This document shows positions 8,517 to 42,340 of a DNA stretch of 64,000 nt, one piece after another. The notes beneath the pieces were generated by a model. It searched no databases. It saw nothing but the letters and a program-made list of their open reading frames with translations, and was not told the DNA's origin. The stretch is taken from assembly GCA_938743325.2 (NCBI GenBank), contig OW568877.1:124001-188000 (forward strand). Reading direction: 5' to 3'. Each line of letters starts with the position of its first letter. Position 1 is the first letter of the stretch. Both the position numbers and the translations under genes were made by a program. The stretch is from Pycnococcus provasolii (lineage: Eukaryota; Chlorophyta; Pseudoscourfieldiophyceae; Pseudoscourfieldiales; Pycnococcaceae).

Positions 8517-9178
8517 TTTTGAAAGGATTAGGAATATAGGAGGAAAGAACAACAGCAAGCAAGCAAGTGGTGGTTGAGCTTCTTGATTGAACACTTGATT
8601 GAACAACAGTATGATACTTAAGTTACGTGAAAACATTTCTTTTTTCAATTTTTATTATTTTGTTGGTACTTTGCAAGCTTGACATCCCCATTTTTTGCAG
8701 GGCGGACATCATCGCGATTCTCGTCGTCGCTTGCGTCGTCATAAACCTTGTCCAAACATTTTGTCTTCGTTCTTGGGACACCCACTAAAAATTGACTGAG
8801 CCTGAGTGGACCGATGTCGTGACGACGAGGAAGAGAGCGGCAAAGATCGTAGTAAGCAGCAGCGTGAACGCGACACGTGTGACACCGACACGTGTGCTGA
8901 AGTCGTTCATCATCATCACGCTGATCGGTCCAGTGACGATGACAAATTTCAAGAACAGCTCCAGGGTCAATATTCAATGGGGACGGGGAGCGATGTGCAA
9001 GTGGGAAGCTGAAAATCTGAAACTGATTTGGGGTTGGATCCGTTATGGGGACTCTTTGCAAAGTGCGGGGCAATTAAATATTTAGTCGCTGTGCACATAG
9101 TCTACTGACTGCATTATTGCCCCCCCGGACGTTGTAGTGTATTTTCCCCTCCATTTCCACCATTGATTGACTGGTTCC
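8517..9178. other. Intergenic region, 662 bp
   Basis: This holds the 3' flank of the giant membrane protein gene and the 5' flank of the double protease gene. An AT-rich stretch (TTAAATATTT, about 9074-9083) lies ~95 bp before the protease ATG and could be a core promoter element. No TGTAA was found close to the stop at 8516. The only coding-like signal is a weak hydrophobic minus-strand reading frame, listed separately. Confidence 0.5.
8788..8970 (-). pseudogene. Weak hydrophobic reading frame resembling a Cys-loop channel M1-M2 segment
   Basis: A 61-codon minus-strand frame without an ATG start encodes two hydrophobic stretches separated by NDFSTRVGVT. Spacing and residues recall the M1-loop-M2 part of pentameric ligand-gated channels, in which an Asp-x-x-x-Arg-(Val/Leu)-Gly loop precedes a Leu/Thr-rich pore helix. 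Just downstream, in a different frame, VPRTKTKCLDKVY loosely resembles the post-M2 segment. No extracellular domain and no convincing M3 are visible. It could equally be a chance open frame in GC-rich DNA. If real, it is a broken host-gene remnant. Confidence 0.18.
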
Positions 9179-12100
9179 ATGCGCCCGCTCCTGCTCCTAA
9201 TACAGATCCTGCTGCTTCATGGTGTTGTCGTCTACGCGGCGAAGTGCAAAGATGGTGAACCGTGCAAACAAGTGGGAAGCTCGTTATATCCCATATCAGC
9301 ATCAGCTTCTTTGGGCGCACTCGGAAATGTCACGCTCTCGCAGGCAGGTCCGGAAGATCCCGTACGCATCAACGTCACGTACGACGACACCGGCTCGTTT
9401 CTTGGCGCGATGGGCGCATTTGAAGTGCACATCGCCGCGGATCCTATCGACAGGGTGGACGCAGGTATGACACTCGACGAGTGTCGCGGCGCGCTCGCAA
9501 CAATGTACGATCCGTATAAGAGTGCTCCGCCACACGTCAAGTGGCGCGTTTACGTCGTCAACGGGTGTGACAGCAGCACGAGCGCGCCAGACCAGGAAGA
9601 GACGCGAGCACGAGAGGAAGTGTGTGCACTTGGTGACTTGAGCGGTAAGCACGGGTCGCTGCCTGGACCAAGCGGAACACGCACAATCGAGGATCGAAGC
9701 AGCCTATCCGTGCACGACGTGATTGGACGAGCGGTCGTGCTTGTGAATGAAAAGTCGGAAAGTGTGGCATGTGCAAACATTGCCATGAATATCGATGATG
9801 TCGACATCAACAACAAGCCGCAGCTTGTCATTGAGGAAGAACCGCCTCAGGATACTGTCAGGGCGCTGAGCGAGGAGGATACCAGCAGGAGCGTTGGTGG
9901 CATAACGCAGCAGTGTTCTACTCCGACGCCAAAGTGCACGAGTGGTCAGCTGCTCTCAGCCAATGAAGATGACGCCGACGACACACAATCCGAGGATGTG
10001 CCAAGGATCATGTCGCCCGAGCCAATCGTGGTGAAGCGTGGCGCGTATCCGTGGATTGTTAATATGCGCGTTTGCAGCGGAACGCTCATCGCACCGACTG
10101 TCATCTTGACCGCCGCGCACTGCGTAACACCGCACGGGGGAAAATATTCGATCCGACTTGGACAGGCCGTACACATGGGGTGCAATGACGTGATCAATCA
10201 AGCGTGTAAGGAGTCTGGGCGTATCACAGGCATCTTCGCACATGAAAAGTACAAGGATGCGTCACTTGAAAAACATGCATACGACATCGCTGTGCTGATT
10301 CTCGAAAAGCCGTCACTCGTGCCCGTGGCGACGCTTGCGACACGTGACGATGATCCGGCGTATTGTGCGACGAGCATGAGCACGGTAGCTGGCTGGGGCC
10401 GAGACGAGAACGGGCAACCATCCGGCGTTCTGCTGGAGGTGAATGTGCCGGTGACGTCACGCGAGCGCTGTGAGGAGGCGTGGGGCAAGGGTCGCATAGG
10501 CCGGATGATGATCTGTGCAGGCTTTGACGATGGCAAGTGCGATGCTTGTCGGGGCGACTCTGGCGGTCCGATTTTCACGTCGACACGATGCGCGCCTCCT
10601 GACACGCCTCCACGCGTGTTCGGGGTCGTGAGCTGGGGTGCACCATGCGACAAGGCGAATCGCAAGCCGTATGGCGTGTACACGTCCGTGGCATCGGTGC
10701 GCGACTGGATCGCATCGAAGATGCCGGGAGGCGAGCTTGCCGATCCTGACGAGCGCGTGCTTCCGTACGTGGTGCGTTCGGTCGATCCGACAGCATTAGA
10801 TGATGAAATATGTGCTTATTTTGACGACTCTCAGTGTTCTTCGCAGTCGATTGCGGATCGGTGTCCGAAGCTCTGCGGTAAATCATGCGAGTTGGTGCGA
10901 AATCTGAAGACTACCACTACTACTACGACGACGACGACCACTACTACTACGACCACTACCACTACCACTACCACTACGACGACGACGACCACTACTACTA
11001 CTACACAGCCTACGACGACGACGACGACCACCACCACTAGAACAACACGCCCGTATTTTGGTGGCATAACAACGCAGTGTTCTATTCCGACGCCAAAGTG
11101 CACGAGTGGTCAGCAGCCCTCAGCCAATGAAGATGACGCCCCACGGCGTATGTTGATCATGTCGCCCGAGCCAAACGTGGTGACGCGTGACGCGTATCCG
11201 TGGATTGTTTTCATGGGCGTTTGCAGCGGAACGCTCATCGCACCGACTGTCATCTTGACTGCCGCGCACTGCGTAGCACCGCACGGGGGAAAGAATTCGA
11301 TCCGACTTGGACAGGCCGTACACATGGGGTGCAATGACGTGGTCAATCAAGCGTGTAAGGAGTCTGGGCGTATCACAGGCATCTTCGCACATGAAAAGTA
11401 CAAGGATGCGTCACTTGAAAAACATGCATACAACGTCGCCGTGCTGATTCTCGAAAAGCCGTCACGAGTGCCCGTGGCGACGCTTGCGACACGTGAAGAC
11501 GATCCGGCGTATTGCGCGACGAGCTTGAGCACGGTAGCTGGCTGGGGCAAAGACGAGACCGGGCGATCATCCAGTGCTCTGCTGGAGGTGGATTTGCCGG
11601 TGACATCTCACGAGAGCTGCGAGAAGGTGTGGGGCAAGGGTCGCATCGGTCCCACGATGATCTGCGCAGGCTTCGACGACGGCAAGTGCGATGCTTGTAG
11701 GGGCGACTCTGGCGGCCCGATTTTCACGTCGACACAATGCGCGCCGCCTGGCACGCCTCCACGCGTGTTCGGGATCGTGAGCTGGGGTGATAGCTGCAAC
11801 AAATTGAATCGCAAGCCATACGGCGTGTACACGTCCGTGGCATCGGTGCGCGACTGGATCGCATCGAAGATGCCGGGAGGCGAGCTTGCCGATCCTGACG
11901 AGCGCGTGCTTCCGTACGTGGTGCGTTCGGTCGATCCGACAGCATCAGACAATGAAATATGTGCTTATGTTGACGCCTCTGCGTGTTCCGTGCAATCGAT
12001 TGCTGATCAGTGTCCGAAGCTCTGCGGAAAATCATCATCATGCGAGTTGGTGCGAAGAAATCTGAAGGCCGCCACTACTACGACGGCCACGACGGACGAC

Positions 12101-12631
12101 GACGAAGGGTTAGTGTTTGATGAGAAGAGGTGTGGGACGGTGAAGAAGATTGTGACGAGCGACACGAAAGCCGAGGACCTGGTGGGCGTGACATGGGTGG
12201 TTGGTGACCTCAGATTTGGGCGAGAAGACACCTCGTGGTCGATTGACGACGACTGGCACTTTGTGGATGAGGACGTACCTGTGCAGGCGAGCGGCATACG
12301 TTGTGTGGAAGGCGATCTTAGTATATCGAATACTATGTCAACGGTGGACCTTTCTCCCTTGGCGAATCTCGCAGTGATCGGAGGCAACCTGAGGATCTAT
12401 AACAACGCCCAGCTGACGACTCTCACAGGTCTCGACGGCATTACGACCGTCGGAGGCGACCTGTGGATCATTAAAAACGCCCAGCTGACGACTCTCACAG
12501 CTCTCGACGGCATCACGACCATTGGAGGCGACCTGGACATCTATCGCAACGCTAAGCTGACGGATCTCGCCGGTCTCGACAGCATCCCGACCGTCGGAGG
12601 CGGCAGGTCGATCAATAATAACGCCGACTGA
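9179..12631 (+). CDS. Secreted tandem trypsin-like serine protease with LRR tail
   Basis: 1150 residues. ATG 9179 is preferred because it gives a clean signal peptide (MRPLLLLIQILLLHGVVVYA). After a ~230-residue N-terminal domain come two S1 peptidase domains. Domain 1 has His314 (TAAHC), Asp369 (AYDIAVL) and Ser461 (GDSGGP). Domain 2 has His697 and Ser844, but the Asp position is Asn752 (AYNVAVL), so it is predicted nearly inactive. Both have Asp six residues before the serine, giving trypsin-like preference for Arg/Lys. Each domain is followed by a short Cys-rich ShKT-like motif (CPKLCGK). A mucin-like poly-Thr linker joins the two halves. The C-terminus holds a Receptor-L/leucine-rich-type repeat with a ~24-residue period. 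It is related to the minus-strand protease at 26043-27767. Role inferred: extracellular or wall proteolysis. Confidence 0.88.
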   Translation: MRPLLLLIQILLLHGVVVYAAKCKDGEPCKQVGSSLYPISASASLGALGNVTLSQAGPEDPVRINVTYDDTGSFLGAMGAFEVHIAADPIDRVDAGMTLDECRGALATMYDPYKSAPPHVKWRVYVVNGCDSSTSAPDQEETRAREEVCALGDLSGKHGSLPGPSGTRTIEDRSSLSVHDVIGRAVVLVNEKSESVACANIAMNIDDVDINNKPQLVIEEEPPQDTVRALSEEDTSRSVGGITQQCSTPTPKCTSGQLLSANEDDADDTQSEDVPRIMSPEPIVVKRGAYPWIVNMRVCSGTLIAPTVILTAAHCVTPHGGKYSIRLGQAVHMGCNDVINQACKESGRITGIFAHEKYKDASLEKHAYDIAVLILEKPSLVPVATLATRDDDPAYCATSMSTVAGWGRDENGQPSGVLLEVNVPVTSRERCEEAWGKGRIGRMMICAGFDDGKCDACRGDSGGPIFTSTRCAPPDTPPRVFGVVSWGAPCDKANRKPYGVYTSVASVRDWIASKMPGGELADPDERVLPYVVRSVDPTALDDEICAYFDDSQCSSQSIADRCPKLCGKSCELVRNLKTTTTTTTTTTTTTTTTTTTTTTTTTTTTTTTTQPTTTTTTTTTRTTRPYFGGITTQCSIPTPKCTSGQQPSANEDDAPRRMLIMSPEPNVVTRDAYPWIVFMGVCSGTLIAPTVILTAAHCVAPHGGKNSIRLGQAVHMGCNDVVNQACKESGRITGIFAHEKYKDASLEKHAYNVAVLILEKPSRVPVATLATREDDPAYCATSLSTVAGWGKDETGRSSSALLEVDLPVTSHESCEKVWGKGRIGPTMICAGFDDGKCDACRGDSGGPIFTSTQCAPPGTPPRVFGIVSWGDSCNKLNRKPYGVYTSVASVRDWIASKMPGGELADPDERVLPYVVRSVDPTASDNEICAYVDASACSVQSIADQCPKLCGKSSSCELVRRNLKAATTTTATTDDDEGLVFDEKRCGTVKKIVTSDTKAEDLVGVTWVVGDLRFGREDTSWSIDDDWHFVDEDVPVQASGIRCVEGDLSISNTMSTVDLSPLANLAVIGGNLRIYNNAQLTTLTGLDGITTVGGDLWIIKNAQLTTLTALDGITTIGGDLDIYRNAKLTDLAGLDSIPTVGGGRSINNNAD
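9896..10914 (+). repeat. Intragenic duplication, unit 1 (first protease domain)
   Basis: This ~1.0 kb segment begins at GGTGGCATAAC and encodes protease domain 1 plus its ShKT-like tail. It matches 11060-12075 at the DNA level with only scattered substitutions, so the second domain arose by a fairly recent tandem duplication within the gene. Confidence 0.85.
10908..11040 (+). repeat. ACN trinucleotide array encoding a poly-Thr linker
   Basis: ACT/ACG/ACC codons repeat almost without interruption and encode more than 40 threonines between the two protease domains. In a secreted protein such a stretch is a likely site of dense O-glycosylation, making a stiff spacer. The array is also likely to vary in length between strains. 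Confidence 0.9.
11060..12075 (+). repeat. Intragenic duplication, unit 2 (second protease domain)
   Basis: Second copy of the ~1.0 kb unit starting at 9896. It keeps the reading frame, cysteines, His and Ser, but the codon for the catalytic Asp is AAC instead of GAC at 11432-11434. Confidence 0.85.
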
Positions 12632-13051
12632 CTCCTCAGTTCTTTTTCTGAAAGCCAAACAAATTTTTGACAAACATGCATGTTTCAAGATTCTTCCTCC
12701 AGTCATTGTTTCGTTTCATGATCATGCCGTTGTTTTTTGCTAAATATTACCACCCATAAGGTGAAGTATCTTGAAACATTTCTTTCGGTGTTATGGACAC
12801 GGGAGGAGGGAGGGCCCCATTACCACCCATTATTACACTGGGGGTGGTAGTTGGTACCAACCTAGTAGGGGAGGGCGCCGAGCGAGGCCCCATTAGGGTT
12901 AGGGTTACGACGAGCAATTCCAACCAAGGGGAACAACCCCCCGGCTGCCAGGTTCTCCAGGCAGCTCCAGGTCCAGGCAGCCACGTGTTCTCCCCCATCA
13001 GGCAGCCTTAAAAAGAAGGCGTTGACTTTTCCGAGCACCAGAAAGAAATCA
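12632..13051. other. Intergenic region with inverted and telomere-like short repeats
   Basis: ATTACCACCCAT occurs twice (near 12746 and 12821). The second copy pairs with GGGTGGTA at 12842-12849 to form a hairpin, followed by the palindrome TTGGTACCAA. Near 12892-12907 there are two and a half TTAGGG units in a row, too short to be a telomere. No gene was seen. Confidence 0.5.
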
Positions 13052-26042: not shown

Positions 26043-27767
26043 TCACTCATTTTTAACTAGTGGACACGAGCCTGTGCAAAGCTTTGGACAATACTGTGCC
26101 ACCACATTGACTCTGCACCACGACTCATCGAAGAATCCACAAGTAGCATGATTTGACGCTGTTTCATCGATCGCACGTACCACGTACGGAAGCACGCGCT
26201 CGTCAAGATCGGCAAGCTGATCTCCAGGTGGCATTTTCGATGCAATCCAGTCGCGTACCGATGCCACGGACGTGTACACGCCGTAAGGCTTTCGGCCCGC
26301 CTTGTTGCACTCTGACCCCCAGCTGACGATGCCAAAGACGCGTGGAGGTGTGCCAGGCGGCGTACATCGCGTCGACGTGAACATGGGCCCACCCGAATCG
26401 CCTTGACATGCATCGCATCCGCCGTCGTCGAAGCCTGCGCAGATCATCGTAGGACCAATCAATCCAACACCCCACTTCGCCTCGCATCGGTCTCGCGAGA
26501 TGACAGGCACCTCCACCTCGTTCAGCGTCTCCGTTGGTGTACCGCTCGCATCGCTTCCCCATCCAGCTACCGTGCTCGCACTCGATTCGCAGTACGCTGG
26601 ATCGTCTTCACGAGTGGCAAGCGTTGCCACAGGCGTTCGAGATGTCGGCTTTTCGAGAATCAGCACGGCGACGTCGTAGGCATTTGCAGCGCGCGGCATC
26701 CCGTCTCCCGTTTGCTCAGGTTTCAGTGCGACTCTCGTGAATTTTTCATGCGCCCAGATTTGCACGATGCGTCGTGCTTCCTGGCAGACTCTATCTTTCA
26801 TGCTGTGACAGCCCATGTACACGACTTGATTCACGTGGATCGGACCATGCGGTTTGACGCAGTGCGCGGCTGTTAAAACGACGGTGGGAGCGATGAGCGT
26901 GCCGCTGCACTGACCCATGTACACGAGCCAAGGATACGCACCGCGTGTCGCCTCCTTCGCGATTGGTGACATGATACGAAGTGATAAATCGATCGGCGGG
27001 TCGTCTTGACGTTGTTCTTGAATTTCGTGACCGCTCGTGCATTTCGCCTCAGGCTGGCTGCACGACGTGATGGTGACGCCTTCTTCCCATCGCTGCGTAT
27101 CGACGTCAGCGCGATATGGTACTGCCCGGCTTACGAGCTGTGCGTTGTTGTTGGTGGTGTTGATGGTGGTGGTGGTGGTGCTGTTGCCTCCTCCAACATT
27201 CTGTTCGATGTTCGCACATCCCACAGTCCTGTCGTAAACGTTTCGCGCGACGATAGGAAGCCCAATGATCTCGCACAGGTTGATGCTACTGTCTTCGATT
27301 GTGCGCGTCCGCCGCGTCGTGACCCTACTGCTGCTAGTCGGTGGAGCGGGCGGTAGCAGTCCATACTTGCCCGTGATGTCCCCAATTGCACAGGCGTACT
27401 CACGTGCTCTCGTCGTTGTCGTGACCACGGCTTCTTCTTGCTGCCGCATGATTTCGTACGCACCGTTACACCCTCCTCGTGTGTAGTCGTTGAAGTTGGT
27501 CCAGCCGAGGTACCTTCGATATGGATCGTACATGTTCATTTTGAGAGCCTCTTGACATTCTTGCGTACTTGTTCCCGCGCCGAATCTGCTCATGGGTTTG
27601 TCGGCGATGTACATCAGAGTCGTCGTCGTGCCGTACTGTCCTCCGGTGGCGTCGTAGTTCACTTGCAGGCGCACGGGACTGTACGGATGGACTTGCGTGA
27701 GCGAGACATTCGCGATGGCACCTAAGTAGGCGAAGGCGGACAGCGGGTACGAACAAGCAGAAGACAT
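26043..27767 (-). CDS. Trypsin-like serine protease, paralogue of the tandem protease
   Basis: 574 residues. It has the same N-terminal domain (YPLSAFAYLGAIANVSLTQ compared with YPISASASLGALGNVTLSQ), a single S1 domain and a ShKT-like Cys-rich tail (YCPKLCTGSC) as the gene at 9179-12631. The full triad is present: TAAHC, NAYDVAVL and CDACQGDSGGP, with Asp six residues before the active Ser (trypsin-like specificity). The first ATG falls where the mature protein of the paralogue begins, so no clear signal peptide is encoded; a short upstream exon or loss of secretion are the options. An AT-rich TATA-like element lies about 55 bp upstream (around 27823). It is convergent with glutamate decarboxylase. 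Confidence 0.87.
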   Translation of the reverse strand: MSSACSYPLSAFAYLGAIANVSLTQVHPYSPVRLQVNYDATGGQYGTTTTLMYIADKPMSRFGAGTSTQECQEALKMNMYDPYRRYLGWTNFNDYTRGGCNGAYEIMRQQEEAVVTTTTRAREYACAIGDITGKYGLLPPAPPTSSSRVTTRRTRTIEDSSINLCEIIGLPIVARNVYDRTVGCANIEQNVGGGNSTTTTTINTTNNNAQLVSRAVPYRADVDTQRWEEGVTITSCSQPEAKCTSGHEIQEQRQDDPPIDLSLRIMSPIAKEATRGAYPWLVYMGQCSGTLIAPTVVLTAAHCVKPHGPIHVNQVVYMGCHSMKDRVCQEARRIVQIWAHEKFTRVALKPEQTGDGMPRAANAYDVAVLILEKPTSRTPVATLATREDDPAYCESSASTVAGWGSDASGTPTETLNEVEVPVISRDRCEAKWGVGLIGPTMICAGFDDGGCDACQGDSGGPMFTSTRCTPPGTPPRVFGIVSWGSECNKAGRKPYGVYTSVASVRDWIASKMPPGDQLADLDERVLPYVVRAIDETASNHATCGFFDESWCRVNVVAQYCPKLCTGSCPLVKNE

Positions 27768-27956: not shown

Positions 27957-30764
27957 TCATCTGGAGAAGACAACGATGCCACGCTCCTGCAGCTCCCTAC
28001 TCAGGTACGCGTCACGCTCGTCCTTCTTCAGACTTATCCAATTGTGCACCGCTACGCACAAAACGTCCAGGCCAAGCTTGCGCAAGTCGCAATTGCGCGC
28101 GTACGTCGATCCGTCAATGCGGTACGTGCCATCAGATGATCGCAAGAAGTGCGTGGGACCGTCGCATTCGATCGCAAGCAGCCTCTCGCCACCGTCGTCG
28201 GTACGACCACGCACGAGCATGTCGATACGGTGCATGCCATTCTCAGTAAGCGCTTTAACGTCGTAAGTGATGCTGAGACGATCGAGGCATGCGACGACTT
28301 CCTTCTCTAAGGATGAACGAGATGATGAAGAAACACTCGCGAGCTGCTTCGCCCATGCCTCGCGTGCCTGATCGAGCAAGGCCACTGATGGTTTGAAGCG
28401 ATCGCCGAGCATGTGATGCGCCTGAAAAATTTGCTGATAGTCTTTCACATCGAGCGATCTCAATTGTGCGGCATGCTCCAATCGACGCAGTAGTCGATCC
28501 AAGACGTTCTGGTCGATAGTGATATTATCGCTCTCGATGTTGTTCATTAGCATCGCAACCGCCCACACCGTGTTCGCGAGATTTTGTGGCTTGAAGTCGT
28601 CGACGCAAACGAGCATGCGACGCTCCAGTGCAGTCATCGCCTTAGCTGACGGCTGGTGTCGCATCGTCGCCCACGCCCATACCGTGTTCGCGAGTGCCTG
28701 CGGCTTGAAGTCGTCGACGCAAACGAGCACGCGGCGCTCCAGTGCAGTCATCGCCTTAGCTGACGGCTGGTGTCGCATCGTCGCCCACGCCCATACCGTG
28801 TTCGAGAGATGCTGCGGCTTGAAGTCGTCGACGCAAGCGAGCATGCGACGCTCAAGAGCAGTCATCGCCTTAGCTGACGGCTGGTGTCCCATCGTCGCCC
28901 ACGCCCACACCGTATTCGCGAGCTCCTGCGGCTTGAAGTCGTCGACGCAAGCGAGCATGCGATGCTCGAGAGCAGCAAGCGCATCAGCTGACGGCTGGTG
29001 TCGCATCGTCGCCCACGCCCATACCGTGTTCGCGAGTGCCTGCGGATTGAAGTCGTCGACGCAAACGAGCATGCGGCGCTCCATAGCAGCAAGCGCCTTA
29101 GCTGACGGCTCGTGTCCCATCGTCGCCCACGCCCATACCGTGTTCGACAGATGCTGTGGCTTGAAGTCGTCGACGCAAGCGAGCATGCGGCGCTCAAGAG
29201 CAGCAAGCACCTGAGGTGACGGCTGATGTCCCATCGTCGCCCACGCCCATACCGTGTTCGAGAGATGCTGCGGCTTGAAGTCGTCGACGCAAGCGAGCAT
29301 GCGGCGCTCGAGAGCAGTCATCGCCTTAGCTGACGGCTGATGTCCCATCGTCGCCCACGCCCATACCGTGTTCGACAGATGCTGCGGCTTGAAGTCGTCG
29401 ACGCAAGCGAGCATGCGACGCTCAAGAGCAGCAAGCGCATCAGCTGACGGCTGGTGCCGCATCGTCGCCCACGCCCACACCGTGTTCGCGAGTGCTTGCG
29501 GCTTGAAGTCGTCGACGCAAGCGAGCATGCGACGCTCAAGAGCAGCAAGCACCTGAGGTGACGGCTGGTGCCGCATCGTCGCCCACGCCCACACCGTATT
29601 CGCGAGTGCTTGCGGATTGAAGTCGTCGACGCAAGCGAGCACGCGGCGCTCCAGTGCAGCAAGCGCATCAGCTGACGGCTGGTGTCGCATCGTCGCCCAC
29701 GCCCATACCGTGTTCGCGAGATTCTGCGGATTGAAGTCGTCGACGCAAACGAGCATGCGACGCTCAAGAGCAGCAAGCACCTGAGGTGACGGCTGGTGCC
29801 GCATCGTCGCCCACGCCCACACCGTGTTCGCGAGTGCTTGCGGCTTGAAGTCGTCGACGCAAGCGAGCATGCGACGCTCGAGAGCATCTAGCGCCTTAGC
29901 TGACGGCTGATGTCCCATCGTCGCCCACGCCCACACCGTGTTCGCGAGATTTTGTGGCTTGAAGTCGTCGACGCAAGCGAGCATGCGGCGCTCCATAGCA
30001 GCAAGCGCCTTAGCTGACGGCTGGTGCCGCATCGTCGCCCACGCCCATACCGTGTTCGCGATGTCCATCGCATTGAAGTCGTCAACCACGCGAAGTACGT
30101 GATCGCTCACGCACTGCACTGCTGAGTGGTTCCCTGGGTACCGAAGCTTCGCATATGACCAGAGCAGGCCGGCAACATTACGTGCACGAATTCTCTCGAA
30201 GTCTTGCAGGCGCTCCTCCAACAGAAGAAGCACGAGGTCACGCTGACTCTTGCCGAGCGTTCTCGTGTGACGCCTCGCCGTGAGCTTTGCGAGTTTGTTT
30301 GCTGCTGTACTCACGTGAATCTCGTTGAATTCGCCGACGTGCTGCTTGACGATGTCCGCGACTTCACCGTCGTTTCGCGCCTTCATGATACGCGCGTTGA
30401 GTAATTTCGCCGCCGAGTCCTTGTTCGAGGTGCGCTGACTGCTTTTCCGTCGCGACTGCTTCGCATCGTCATCGTAGCGTTTGTTTGATTTGTCGTCACC
30501 GGCGGCAGCGAACGCGACGAGCGACGTACGCGATGATGCACAATAACCATAATCGCGGCGAGAAAGCGATCCCAAACCAACCGCCAAACCACCACCCAAA
30601 CCACGACGATCTGACGAACGAACACGAACACCACCACGATCGATGCGACGAATACGAATACGACGACGGAGAGCAAGTGCAGGTGACCATGTGGACTTTA
30701 CAGAAACGCGTGACCATGTGGATGGTGACGGTGACGTGGCATGACAAGGGCGCGACATTAACAT
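27957..30764 (-). CDS. OPR-RAP organelle RNA-binding protein with 13 near-identical modules
   Basis: 935 residues from the ATG at 30764 (MLMSRPCH); this start leaves a 111-bp divergent promoter shared with the MFS gene. The N-terminus is Arg/Ser-rich, as in chloroplast or mitochondrial transit peptides. The core is an array of 38-residue octotricopeptide repeats (NTVWAWATMxHQPS ... LERRML), 13 almost identical plus divergent flanking copies. The C-terminus is a RAP domain (LAIECDGPTHF ... GLDVLCVAVHNW), a fold related to PD-(D/E)XK nucleases. In chlorophytes such proteins bind specific organelle transcripts and control their stability, splicing or translation. The target here is unknown. Homogeneous repeats are unusual, since OPR arrays are normally quite divergent. 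Confidence 0.9.
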   Translation of the reverse strand: MLMSRPCHATSPSPSTWSRVSVKSTWSPALALRRRIRIRRIDRGGVRVRSSDRRGLGGGLAVGLGSLSRRDYGYCASSRTSLVAFAAAGDDKSNKRYDDDAKQSRRKSSQRTSNKDSAAKLLNARIMKARNDGEVADIVKQHVGEFNEIHVSTAANKLAKLTARRHTRTLGKSQRDLVLLLLEERLQDFERIRARNVAGLLWSYAKLRYPGNHSAVQCVSDHVLRVVDDFNAMDIANTVWAWATMRHQPSAKALAAMERRMLACVDDFKPQNLANTVWAWATMGHQPSAKALDALERRMLACVDDFKPQALANTVWAWATMRHQPSPQVLAALERRMLVCVDDFNPQNLANTVWAWATMRHQPSADALAALERRVLACVDDFNPQALANTVWAWATMRHQPSPQVLAALERRMLACVDDFKPQALANTVWAWATMRHQPSADALAALERRMLACVDDFKPQHLSNTVWAWATMGHQPSAKAMTALERRMLACVDDFKPQHLSNTVWAWATMGHQPSPQVLAALERRMLACVDDFKPQHLSNTVWAWATMGHEPSAKALAAMERRMLVCVDDFNPQALANTVWAWATMRHQPSADALAALEHRMLACVDDFKPQELANTVWAWATMGHQPSAKAMTALERRMLACVDDFKPQHLSNTVWAWATMRHQPSAKAMTALERRVLVCVDDFKPQALANTVWAWATMRHQPSAKAMTALERRMLVCVDDFKPQNLANTVWAVAMLMNNIESDNITIDQNVLDRLLRRLEHAAQLRSLDVKDYQQIFQAHHMLGDRFKPSVALLDQAREAWAKQLASVSSSSRSSLEKEVVACLDRLSITYDVKALTENGMHRIDMLVRGRTDDGGERLLAIECDGPTHFLRSSDGTYRIDGSTYARNCDLRKLGLDVLCVAVHNWISLKKDERDAYLSRELQERGIVVFSR
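28602..30083 (-). repeat. Tandem array of 13 x 114 bp OPR modules
   Basis: Thirteen in-frame 114-bp units (38 codons each) run without spacers. Protein differences cluster at few sites: position 4 (Lys/Asn), 7 (Asn/Ala/His/Glu), 9 (Ala/Ser), 19 (Arg/Gly), a block at 24-30 with four recurrent versions, and 36 (Ala/Val). A degenerate fourteenth unit follows at 28488-28601. Several combinations recur along the array, as expected from unit duplication and gene conversion. Confidence 0.92.
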
Positions 30765-30875
30765 GCGGAGGATGAAAGGGACGAGGTAGGTGTGGCACAG
30801 GGAGGAAAGGAAGGGGGAGGAAAAAAGGGGATTGACAAAAGTTGAAAACTCAAAATCATCAAGAACACAGTGGGG
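30765..30875. promoter_or_regulatory. Compact divergent promoter region
   Basis: Only 111 bp separate the start codons of the OPR-RAP gene (minus) and the MFS gene (plus). Both core promoters and both 5' leaders must fit here or extend into the neighbouring coding sequence. No convincing TATA box was seen; the plus side is rich in GGGAGGAAAGGAAGGGGG-type purine tracts. Confidence 0.45.
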
Positions 30876-32297
30876 ATGGCGGACGCATCGGCCTCCCATG
30901 GTGAGCGTGATGAGTGTGATGACGACGATGGAGAAGCCGCGCTACTGCTTTCACATGCACATGCACCACCTGGACCTCTCACTTTCTCATCTCACGATAT
31001 GCACTTGCACGTCGAGTTGCCGTTGGAATCATCATCCACATCCACCTCGTTGGAAGATGACTCCATCAGACGCAAACGTAGGTCCGTCTCGTACGTCTTG
31101 TGCTTCGTATGCATGGGACTCGCTGTGGGAAGCACGGGACCCGCGTTCGCGGATATCACAAAACATATTCACGTGAACCTATCGCCCGCGTTCGTAGCGA
31201 GAGGAGCTGGTGGCATCATGGGAGGGACGCTAGGTGGACTCATCTTGCAGAAGTTTAACACGAAAGGACACGCCATCGTCGCGGCGGGCGCGGCGTCCAC
31301 AGCACTCGCTGCACTCCTTATACCGCAAGCTCGAGTGCTCTGGCAAGCAGGTGTCGCGCTCTTCCTGCTAGACGCGGGATGCGGACTTCTTCAGCAAGCG
31401 AACACGCTCATCGTTTGGGCGCAACCAACCAACAGGCACACCATATGGCTGAACATCCTCAACGGAACGTTTGGATTTGGAAGCCTTCTTGCACCGCTCG
31501 CCGTCGCCGCCGTTGCCTTCATGTTTCAACTGAACCACCAAACGGCGGTGGGCTACGCCTCCACTGGCGCCGCAGCTGTCGCACTTGCGTCAGGCGTTGG
31601 GCTCGTCTCCATTGATAGCCCAACACAGCCGAAAATAACAACAACTACATCATCATCATCATCACCATCATCACCATCATCACCAACCCCATCATCATCC
31701 TACGGCAGACAAATCGTCCAGGTGATCGCAACGGCGCTTGCGCTCAACGCCAGCGTGGGTGCCGAGACAACGTTCGGCGCGTTCGCTGAGGCGTACGTGA
31801 TTGGACAACAAACAAAACACCCTGGACGTCTTGCGAACATCTCCGAAAGTGAACGTGACATTCTGTCATCAGCCTTCTGGTGCTCGTTCACCTTTGGGCG
31901 ATTTGCCTGTGCATTCGCGCTGGATCGGTACATTCAGCGCAAAGCGACGAAGGGTGCGGAGGAGATTGCGCTTCTTATGCAAGCTTTCCTGGCTCTCGTG
32001 GGTGCTCTCATGCCCGTCGTAGCACCCGCGAGCCGCGCGGCGCTGTGGGCGAGTGCACTGTGCGTGGGCGCGGGAGTTGCAGGTCTCGTCGCGGGCTTTC
32101 TCGCGCAAGTGGCACGCGCAATGCCTGTCAGTGGCAACGTTGCGGCAGCCACCGCATTAGGAACAATGACCGGTGTTTCGTTGTGGCAGACGATCACGAC
32201 GGCATTAGGTGCTGAGCACATGATGGAGATCATCTCCGTCGCCACGGGTGTCGCACTTGTCATACAGGCATGTTTTGTTGCTGAAAAGCTTACATAA
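30876..32297 (+). CDS. Major facilitator superfamily transporter (MFSD4/FucP-like)
   Basis: 473 residues from ATG 30876. A ~75-residue acidic, Ser/His-rich cytosolic N-terminus precedes twelve predicted membrane helices arranged 6+6. The first helix (CFVCMGLAVGSTGPAF) and the Gly-rich second helix region (GAGGIMGGTLGG) resemble the FucP/MFSD4/Na-glucose transporter 1 group. The central cytosolic loop (nt ~31620-31700) is a Ser/Thr/Pro run from TCA/CCA repeats. Substrate is probably a sugar or small metabolite, but it cannot be read from the sequence. The usual family charge motif between helices 2 and 3 is weak. It is divergent from the OPR-RAP gene and convergent with the Tudor-like gene. 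Confidence 0.8.
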   Translation: MADASASHGERDECDDDDGEAALLLSHAHAPPGPLTFSSHDMHLHVELPLESSSTSTSLEDDSIRRKRRSVSYVLCFVCMGLAVGSTGPAFADITKHIHVNLSPAFVARGAGGIMGGTLGGLILQKFNTKGHAIVAAGAASTALAALLIPQARVLWQAGVALFLLDAGCGLLQQANTLIVWAQPTNRHTIWLNILNGTFGFGSLLAPLAVAAVAFMFQLNHQTAVGYASTGAAAVALASGVGLVSIDSPTQPKITTTTSSSSSPSSPSSPTPSSSYGRQIVQVIATALALNASVGAETTFGAFAEAYVIGQQTKHPGRLANISESERDILSSAFWCSFTFGRFACAFALDRYIQRKATKGAEEIALLMQAFLALVGALMPVVAPASRAALWASALCVGAGVAGLVAGFLAQVARAMPVSGNVAAATALGTMTGVSLWQTITTALGAEHMMEIISVATGVALVIQACFVAEKLT

Positions 32298-40288: not shown

Positions 40289-42340
40289 ATGACAATGCCT
40301 CCGCCGATGTCGTCTCTCAATCCGCAGCATCATCAATCATGTCGGTGTCCCAGGGCTCATGGTAGACCCGTGGACTTGACCCATGGACGCCTCGCTTCTT
40401 TTAGACGCCAGAGGCTGCATGGACTGATATCGTCATTGTCGTTTGACCACTCTTCCACTCCGCAGCACTACTGTTTGCATTCTTCCCGTGGTTTGGTTTG
40501 GCGTCTTCATGGTTCGGCGTCAGAATCGGCATCGCCGTCACCGCCCTTTCTGATGGAGTCGTCCGATTCCAATAATGCAAATGACATTAGTCGGAGGAGT
40601 CTATCCTTAGCAGGAGGAGGAGGAGGAGGAGGAGGAGAGTCTGCTGTGAGCTGGTTGTCGTCGCCTTTGACGTCTCAGGCCATTAAGACGTGCGAACCGC
40701 TCCTGCGAAGACACCCAAGTTCGCAGTCCCAACTTCAACCTCGAGAAGACGCGAATCTCCAAAACGCACTCGTGCTCGCAAACATACTGCACGAAGACGT
40801 GCAGGCGCAGGACGACGTGTGCGCAGCAGCCATCTACGCGGAAACCATCGCACTCGGATACGAAAAACACCTCACAGCCGACGGACTGTGCACAACAGAC
40901 CACGTCTGGAGAATGGCGAAACGCATACACGAAGTGAGAGAAATTCTTGGCGACCCCGCCGTCGTGCGCGACGACGCGCTCGCCAAGGAGGCACGGAGAA
41001 AGGCTCTGCGAAACGCGGGCACGAGGGCGGTGGCTGTCGACTGCGCACGCACGCTGCTTGCGATGAGACTCGCGGCGAACAACACGCCAGGAGCCGCGGC
41101 TGGGCCGGGAAAGCAGGAACTCGCGCTGCGCGCCGCGCAGCTTCACGCGCCACTCGCAAGATCCCTGCGTCTCGGCGTCGTGCCTCTGGTGTCGAGCAGA
41201 GATCGAGCAAGCGTCAACAACAGGGGGACGGCGGCAACCATCGCGGGGAGCACCGCTGCCGGCGTGGGCGTGGAACTCGAAAGCCTTGCTCTAGCCGCAC
41301 TCGTGCCACGTGCTTGGCACAGGGCGCTTAGACAGCTTGCGCTGCAAGGTGAGACGTACGACGAACTGCTCGACTCTCTTGCTCGCACCCTCGCTTCTGC
41401 CATCGAGCGAGCGCCGTGGGTTGACGAGGCGAAATTTCTGACGCGGATGGCACACGAAGAGGCTTGCGTTGAGCCGTTGGCGTTGAGAGCCGACAACGAG
41501 TGCATTTCAGTGTACCGCAACGGCGGCGACGGCAGCGGCAGCGGTAGCAGCAGCTCCGTGTCATCGCGCATCCCGCTCGCGGAAGTGCACACGGCATTTG
41601 AGGACCTCCCCTGGCCTCTCGCCGCGCGCCTGGAGGTGTTTCACAGGCGCAAGACGCTGACGAGCGCGGTGCGCAAGATGCTGCGCACGGGAGTCGAGGC
41701 ACCGTCGAACTTGCGTGACCTTCTCGGAATTCGCGTCGTTGTGCACCCTCCGAACAAGTGCAAGACGGTAGACGACGACGACATCTGGCGCGAGGCGAGA
41801 GCATGTGCAGCGTGCTACGCGGTGAAGGCTATCATGGACGCCCTGCAGGAGTTTGGCGAGGTTGTGCCTCTGCGCACGAAGGACTACATCGCCTCGCCGA
41901 AGCTGGAGAATGGATACCAAAGCCTGCATGCGACGTACCGCATCACGACGACGGGTGACGAGAAGCACGACCAGGAGGTTGTTTTCCTGGAGGTTCAGAT
42001 TCGCACGGCAGGTATGCACCGCGAGGCTGAGTATGGCGCTGCGCGCCACGAATGGTACAAAGGTGGTGTCGTTCGCGTGAGCGATTGGCATGCCGCTGCT
42101 CTTGCGAGTCTTCCTTCGAGCGACTCGATGGACGACGGCGGCGGCGGCATTCCGTCGGCGAACGAGGAGGCTATGTTTGCTTCCCTCCCTTCTTCAGACG
42201 TCTCCTTACGCCGCAGCTTTCGCAGCGACGAGCCGTCGGACATGACAGCCGAGCAAGCTCACCTCGCAGACCGGGAAGCGGCACGCGTTGCCGCAGCCCT
42301 CCGTGGCGCAGTTCGCAATGCGAACCGTGTTACTGGATGA
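40289..42340 (+). CDS. RelA/SpoT homologue, (p)ppGpp synthetase, probably plastid
   Basis: 683 residues. The first ~100 are Ser/Arg/His-rich and fit a transit peptide. Residues ~155-230 align with the HD hydrolase region, but the His-Asp pair is gone (AAAIYAETIA where family members have ALLHDVVED), so (p)ppGpp hydrolysis is not expected. The synthetase half is intact: FHRRKTLTSAVRKM (nucleotide-binding basic block), LRDLLGIRVVV (metal-binding Asp), KDYIASPKLENGYQSLHAT and LEVQIRTAGMHREAEYG (catalytic Glu). No TGS/ACT regulatory domains and no EF-hands follow, unlike long RSH proteins and plant CRSH. It transfers pyrophosphate from ATP to GDP/GTP and would adjust plastid transcription and translation. 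Poly-Gly and Ser/Gly runs near nt 40615 and 41530 are simple-repeat insertions. Confidence 0.88.
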   Translation: MTMPPPMSSLNPQHHQSCRCPRAHGRPVDLTHGRLASFRRQRLHGLISSLSFDHSSTPQHYCLHSSRGLVWRLHGSASESASPSPPFLMESSDSNNANDISRRSLSLAGGGGGGGGESAVSWLSSPLTSQAIKTCEPLLRRHPSSQSQLQPREDANLQNALVLANILHEDVQAQDDVCAAAIYAETIALGYEKHLTADGLCTTDHVWRMAKRIHEVREILGDPAVVRDDALAKEARRKALRNAGTRAVAVDCARTLLAMRLAANNTPGAAAGPGKQELALRAAQLHAPLARSLRLGVVPLVSSRDRASVNNRGTAATIAGSTAAGVGVELESLALAALVPRAWHRALRQLALQGETYDELLDSLARTLASAIERAPWVDEAKFLTRMAHEEACVEPLALRADNECISVYRNGGDGSGSGSSSSVSSRIPLAEVHTAFEDLPWPLAARLEVFHRRKTLTSAVRKMLRTGVEAPSNLRDLLGIRVVVHPPNKCKTVDDDDIWREARACAACYAVKAIMDALQEFGEVVPLRTKDYIASPKLENGYQSLHATYRITTTGDEKHDQEVVFLEVQIRTAGMHREAEYGAARHEWYKGGVVRVSDWHAAALASLPSSDSMDDGGGGIPSANEEAMFASLPSSDVSLRRSFRSDEPSDMTAEQAHLADREAARVAAALRGAVRNANRVTG

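Follow-up and report, generated by a model that had tools for sequence, protein, structure and literature searches.

In OPR proteins, degenerate repeats hide the residues that confer specificity, and the recognition code of these proteins has been called a pending task (PMC8635915); the phrase "OPR code" occurs in the title of a 2019 thesis cited in PMC13126933. The locus described here, in which 13 near-constant modules are followed by a RAP domain, raises the question of whether a few variable positions in an otherwise uniform array could make up such a code. With modules this constant, the candidates are narrowed to a few positions in the 95 modules of one gene family.

The window, by which we mean the whole stretch of 64,000 nucleotides that was analyzed, is C17:124001-188000 of Pycnococcus provasolii CCAP190/2 (assembly ucPycProv1.2; 32.3 Mb in 46 contigs). 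Pycnococcus provasolii and Pseudoscourfieldia marina were named among the nearest protein matches, and the 51 light-harvesting matches in the genome are what an alga should have. Twelve matches to PF00504 (light-harvesting) share one score, 92.2; they lie on both strands in two clusters at C31:133072-142609 and 360395-366434 and may represent a large array that is duplicated or palindromic. The mitochondrial contig is 24,277 bp long and the plastid contig 80,243 bp. Mitochondrial COX1 (L052, C45:22144-23484) carries two in-frame TGA codons, which are probably read as Trp.

The array-bearing gene (Table 1) lies in a frame that is open from 27957 to 30941 on the minus strand; the likely ATG is at 30764, and other in-frame ATGs occur at 30758 and, upstream, at 30899. 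Tandem Repeats Finder reported a repeat at 28560-30083 with a period of 114, 13.4 copies, 88% matches, and a score of 2212. In the translation 13 full modules follow one another at an exact spacing of 38 residues, and a further module, the 14th, is conserved over its first half only. Modules are numbered here in the phase VDDF..., so that position n of the preliminary description becomes n+1; the 13 in-register modules which it placed at 28602-30083 fill exactly 13 × 114 bp, one codon off the phase used here.

Table 1. Coordinates of the array gene and its parts within the window.
Feature	Position	Strand	Basis or remark
OPR/FAST-type repeat and RAP protein gene	27957..30764	minus	uninterrupted frame (935 aa and stop codon; inferred start); sequence and fold matches in the PDB
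Low-confidence N-terminal region, residues 1-112	30429..30764	minus	pLDDT <50
Conserved N-terminal helical region ahead of the array, residues 113-226	30087..30428	minus	AlphaFold2 prediction and N-flank comparisons
13 modules of 38 aa/114 bp each (VDDF... phase)	28605..30086	minus	Tandem Repeats Finder, translation, module alignment
Terminal module, conserved in first half only, position 8 = N	28491..28604	minus	translation and alignment
RAP domain (Vsr/PD-(D/E)XK-like), motif IECDGPTHF	27996..28172	minus	29.5 bits versus cutoff of 24.2

The module consensus is VDDFKPQxLANTVWAWATMRHQPSxxALAALERRMLAC. No two of the 13 modules are identical, and their mean pairwise identity is 83.0% (amino acids) or 88.5% (nucleotides), for which the earlier wording "almost identical" is fair if a little strong. 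Entropy within the array is highest at position 8 (2.04 bits), followed by 26, 29, and 20 and then by 5, 10, 28, and 37. This is in broad agreement with the variable positions listed before, except that the former position 29 (30 here) is invariant and that position 35 in the present numbering also varies. From the N to the C terminus, position 8 reads D N A N A A H H H A E H A, which adds D to the N, A, H, and E already noted.

A Pfam scan of the window protein matched FAST_1 at 106.4 bits (cutoff, 27.4) and placed a RAP domain behind the array as had been claimed; none of the 10 families matched at an E value of ≤1 was a PPR family. The motif of the putative RAP endonuclease is present in the window gene; human FASTKD4 appears to be inactive as a RAP nuclease (PMC11879112). 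In the database proteins P0001 and P0124, which are relatives of the window gene, the motif reads IKCDGRARF, and conserved acidic and His residues are thereby altered. At C7:739474-742701 (L046), OPR/FAST_1 repeats and an FAD_binding_3 monooxygenase domain share a single open frame, and the pairing of FAST_1 with PF01494 recurs in P0068, P0074, P0079, P0141 (Cymbomonas), P0146, P0162, P0164, and P0171. Elsewhere in the window, positions 9167-12631 match a trypsin domain in two stretches and, over the 72-bp tandem repeats at 12378-12632, a Receptor L domain; another trypsin gene occupies 26043-27767 (minus strand), and a RelA/SpoT-type gene occupies 40289-42340.

AlphaFold2 predicted a two-helix solenoid (mean pLDDT, 83; pTM, 0.64), in which the 13 tandem modules of 38 residues form the two-helix repeats of ~37 to 40 residues of an alpha-solenoid. 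In the modules inspected, predicted helix A comprises positions 6 to 18 and helix B runs from 25 to 39 or 41. The nearest folds were chains of the Polytomella ATP synthase, of the Chlamydomonas, Polytomella, and Toxoplasma mitoribosomes, and of trypanosome RESC6, and the predicted model resembles solved OPR/HPR/FASTK-type proteins. Together with the profile matches, these predicted repeats support the original assignment to OPR-type modules. The unit of 38 residues departs from the 37-residue HPR unit and from the 35-residue motif of restorer-of-fertility-like (RFL) PPR proteins. The PPPEW motif was not found in the 95 family modules, in which only P23 is kept (95/95) and that stretch has no W; many accepted OPRs have only a degenerate form of it (PMC12691811). 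By analogy the window array may be a binder of single-stranded RNA (PMC8660880), and on a helical wheel position 8 lies outside the hydrophobic side of helix A, which is consistent with its facing the RNA.

With the array and the protein as queries, a genome search recovered 14 family open reading frames, on contigs C1, C8 (two), C9 (three), C11, C17 (the window), C21 (two), C23 (two), C30, and C31, with four tandem pairs among them. Of the 16 RAP matches listed in the genome, 13 belong to these reading frames, and these counts are minimum values. Eleven of the 14 are close paralogs that together hold 95 core modules with 94 distinct amino acid sequences; the arrays on C30 and C31 are degenerate, and the C11 member has two modules. 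The copy at C8:108327-109400 (L032), with eight modules and no RAP domain in frame, looks like a pseudogene. Among the close paralogs, modules from different genes are 86.8% (nucleotides) and 80.7% (amino acids) identical, compared with 88.3% and 82.8% within a gene. Similarity between genes that approaches similarity within them is the mark of concerted evolution of the modules among family loci, and the suggestion that the array had been expanded or homogenized therefore holds across genes as well as within the array. Exact tracts common to different genes reach 137 bp at most, and at that length no very recent large conversion between family genes was seen. Higher-order repeat units were considered and rejected because module identity barely shifts with distance, staying at 0.87 to 0.89 across distances of 1 to 11 modules.

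Across the 95 modules, entropy was highest at position 26 (2.80 bits), followed by positions 8 (2.40), 5 (2.06), 22 (1.68), 25 (1.41), 27 (1.19), 29 (1.09), and 20 (0.98), while T12, W14, W16, M19, and P23 are invariant. Position 8 is A, E, H, D, or N in 92 of the 95 modules and lies between Q7 (93/95) and L9 (86/95). Compared with 12 other variable positions, it showed no linkage at z > 4; linkage was found between positions 5 and 6 and among 25, 26, and 27. Overall pN/pS was 0.50. When pN at single positions was divided by mean pS, the ratio was 2.7 at position 26, 2.5 at position 8 (3.2 in the window array), and 1.9 at position 5, and it exceeded 1 at positions 5, 8, 20, 22, 25, 26, and 27. 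Silent diversity differs widely from codon to codon (0.02 to 0.55), and for this reason we rejected the excess as proof of diversifying selection. One-step missense routes lead to never-seen residues in 55% of cases at position 8 versus 29% at position 26, a contrast that is weak evidence alone, as the share at positions 5, 20, 27, and 29 is also 52 to 57%. To us the pN ratios indicate no less than a complete release from constraint, with the alphabet restricted at position 8.

Arrays outside the family offered a further view of these positions. The comparison set comprised at least 184 stored homologs from the matches listed, from which 14 Pycnococcaceae proteins were set aside to leave 170; 146 of these, again among the matches listed, had at least five in-register modules. 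Repeats are usually degenerate in known green-algal OPR proteins, as had been pointed out, and within-array identity had a median of 46% in the 170 of the 184 stored homologs (among the matches listed) with at least four strict modules. The contrast with the window array is not absolute, however, since 46 of the 146 outside proteins reach a mean module identity of at least 55%, 11 reach at least 70%, and 5 reach at least 75%, against 77% for the window array by the same measure. In 42 of these 46 homogeneous arrays, position 8 (24 arrays) or position 5 (18 arrays, ties going to the lower position) was the most variable of positions 4 to 19. The search pattern fixed Q7 and restricted positions 4, 9 to 11, 14, and 15, so that a fair comparison can be made only among the free positions; there, positions 8 and 5 still lead, with 24 and 16.5 of the 46 arrays when ties are split. 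Position 8 also had the best mean rank among the 21 positions compared. The 46 arrays are not independent and fall into eight clusters at 70% consensus identity, of which six are topped by position 8, one by position 5, and one by position 17.

The periods of the homogeneous relatives are 37 (33 arrays), 38 (6 arrays), and 39 residues (7 arrays). Position 8 leads in the first two groups; in the 39-residue arrays, positions 36, 25, and 28 rank above it. A different cut, of 32 arrays with at least 60% identity, gave position 8 a median rank of 2.5 among 37 to 39 positions and a place in the top four in 22 arrays. Its residue was E, A, N, D, G, or H in 1,100 of 1,160 strict modules from 169 proteins among the matches listed. 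Position 26 is not a leading position outside the family, where helix-B registers differ with the period. Among the variable positions, only 8 and 5 recur as leading helix-A positions elsewhere. Of the positions proposed earlier as code candidates, 7 and 4 in the old numbering are thus retained and the others do not lead in helix A; positions 25 to 31 and 37 (formerly 24 to 30 and 36) may represent surface variation of this lineage.

The family also differs between strains and close species. The gene at C21:555602 has close counterparts in P0007 (P. provasolii), P0123 (Ps. marina), and P0125 (a JGI record on a contig of 1,379 bases), with N-flanks 98 to 100% identical over 115 residues and C-flanks in lower agreement (95.4, 96.8, and 78.3%). 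Written as positions 5, 6, and 8 of each module with the terminal half-module last, the four arrays read KPE DPD KPA KPA KPE NSA in C21:555602, NPT DPD NPA NPD KPN in P0007, NPT KPE NSA in P0123, and KPE DPN NPE in P0125. In P0125 an N-flank that is 99% like that of C21:555602 is combined with a C-flank only 78% alike, a sign of paralog exchange or of a chimeric contig. At a second locus, C21:553300 reads EPH EPH IPN IPN KPN and P0008 reads EPH IPN RPN IPN KPN (flanks, 100 and 98.9%). The degenerate C31 array served as a control: it matched P0009 (flanks, 100 and 99.5%) at 7 of 7 modules. Module counts of database proteins may suffer from gene-model errors or short-read collapse, which hardly affect residue differences. 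Arrays are thus seen to be reshuffled, lengthened, or shortened, clearly at one locus and partially at a second, and the rapid evolution proposed for the window gene is supported by another family locus, where the flanks are near-identical and the arrays between them differ. Of the relatives, P0001 is nearest to the window gene itself; it has eight full modules in a different order. Its flanks are 90.4% (N) and 85.8% (C), against an N-flank of 95% for the paralog C8:105009, and it is no more than a candidate for a strict ortholog.

We attempted to decode nine position-8 strings with 1,024 residue-to-base maps, leaving out C21:553300, C8:108327, C30, C31, and C11 as short, truncated, or divergent. 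No code signal was detected in the mitochondrial genome, where the best score was 8.72 against 6.91 to 9.58 in 12 within-array shuffles (one higher), in a test that has little power should the code be degenerate, mismatches be tolerated, or position 5 be used. When 40 kb of the 80-kb plastid genome was added, the best score was 6.57, a value with no null distribution alongside it.

The best explanation for these observations, and one that we consider probable, is an OPR-RAP family of organelle RNA-binding proteins with a code at positions 8 and 5 and rapid turnover of its arrays. Tandem repeats as similar as these are well known to cause assembly errors; however, ucPycProv1.2 was built from 444× PacBio HiFi reads and Hi-C with a QV of 58.2 (PMC11130579), and because of this source a misassembly of the window array is unlikely. 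The check on misassembly that had been asked for is largely answered in this way, and, with the family spread over nine contigs and each window module different, we give hardly any credence to a collapsed or misjoined repeat. Neutral concerted evolution, in which conversion and unequal crossing-over homogenized the family and positions 5, 8, 20, 22, and 25 to 29 are merely exposed, would account for variation at several surface positions, for position 26 being more variable than position 8, and for a position-8 pN close to the silent diversity of the most diverse codons. We regard it as unlikely nonetheless, given the near-invariant Q7 and mostly invariant L9 on either side of position 8, the recurrence of the same position with nearly the same alphabet in arrays outside the family, and, with less force, the share of never-seen missense residues.

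The solenoid could instead be a structural or protein-binding scaffold that binds RNA nonspecifically or not at all, serving as a subunit or assembly factor like those in the Polytomella ATP synthase or in mitoribosomes. A structural subunit should not vary in the number and order of its modules between alleles with near-identical N-flanks, nor should it occur as 14 open reading frames with differing arrays, and we think this quite improbable. The site of action is a further point of divergence. Within its first 30 residues the window gene encodes three K/R and zero D/E, an N terminus which we infer to be organelle-targeting-like, and the N termini of C30 and C31 are likewise basic and acid free for 30 residues. 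In seven of the 11 close paralogs the conserved domain is reached almost directly after the start, with no obvious targeting extension; all of these features were read from the sequence. Members with short N termini (C1, C21 [two], C23 [two], and C9 [two of three, with C9:578161 ambiguous]) have 2 to 4 acidic residues in the first 30, and they might act in the cytosol or nucleus, for example against foreign or selfish RNA, leaving only the extended members (the window gene, C8:105009, C30, and C31) to the organelles. Rapid array turnover would fit such an arms race. However, the OPR and RAP proteins studied so far act in chloroplasts or mitochondria (PMC8635915, PMC8190603), targeting is still feasible with short basic N termini, and upstream exons are conceivable; we attach little likelihood to this alternative.

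Under the preferred reading of an organelle RNA-binding family, the OPR/FAST-type alpha-solenoid would hold single-stranded RNA at about one base per module. Position 8, in the first turn of helix A, would discriminate the base together with position 5 just ahead of it, and the Vsr-like RAP end would cut, anchor, or recruit on the bound transcript. Patterns of similarity suggest that modules are exchanged and homogenized within and between family genes, and such turnover would allow quick re-targeting, as for RFL-PPR proteins in plants. The likely site of action would be the mitochondrion or the plastid, less surely so for members with short N termini. A stronger version, in which recognition is nearly digital, with position 8 (A, E, H, D, or N, and G outside the family) tuned by position 5 to specify one base and with conversion-driven exchange writing new target strings, as an OPR counterpart of the TALE and RFL-PPR systems, is tentative and on balance doubtful.

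OPR-RAP proteins and their expansion in green algae are already known (PMC13126933). None of the titles and abstract openings listed by a literature search, which covered few subscription papers, dealt with near-identical OPR arrays or with Pycnococcus OPR proteins. What appears to be new is a homogenized, strain-variable array family that exposes two candidate code positions. If this is true, natural module variants stand ready for binding assays and for programmable RNA-binding proteins, and rapid re-targeting has evolved not only in PPR proteins but in OPR proteins too.

The window protein is like the OPR/HPR-RAP (FASTK-type) proteins in its two-helix repeats of 38 residues, its predicted alpha-solenoid, and its FAST_1 and RAP matches; it is unlike them in the likeness of its modules (83%, or 77% by the measure applied to homologs, versus the median of 46%) and in having no PPPEW. 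In TAL effectors, too, near-identical modules carry a hypervariable spot and arrays are reshuffled by recombination, but these are unrelated bacterial DNA-binding repeats of 33 to 35 residues. The NCL (NCC1/NCC2-like) family of Chlamydomonas consists of tandemly duplicated OPR-RAP paralogs with 7 to 12 repeats, and NCC1 and NCC2 mutants gain new RNA targets (PMC8635915, PMC13126933). By description only, the Pycnococcus family resembles it in its tandem OPR-RAP paralogs and rapid turnover (PMC8635915). The RFL-PPR genes of barley are clustered and show high intraspecific diversity, with diversifying selection on the specificity residues 5 and 35 (PMC7380019). The turnover of arrays in clustered paralogs is shared with the family described here, which is set apart from those 35-residue PPR repeats by its 38-residue modules and its RAP domain.
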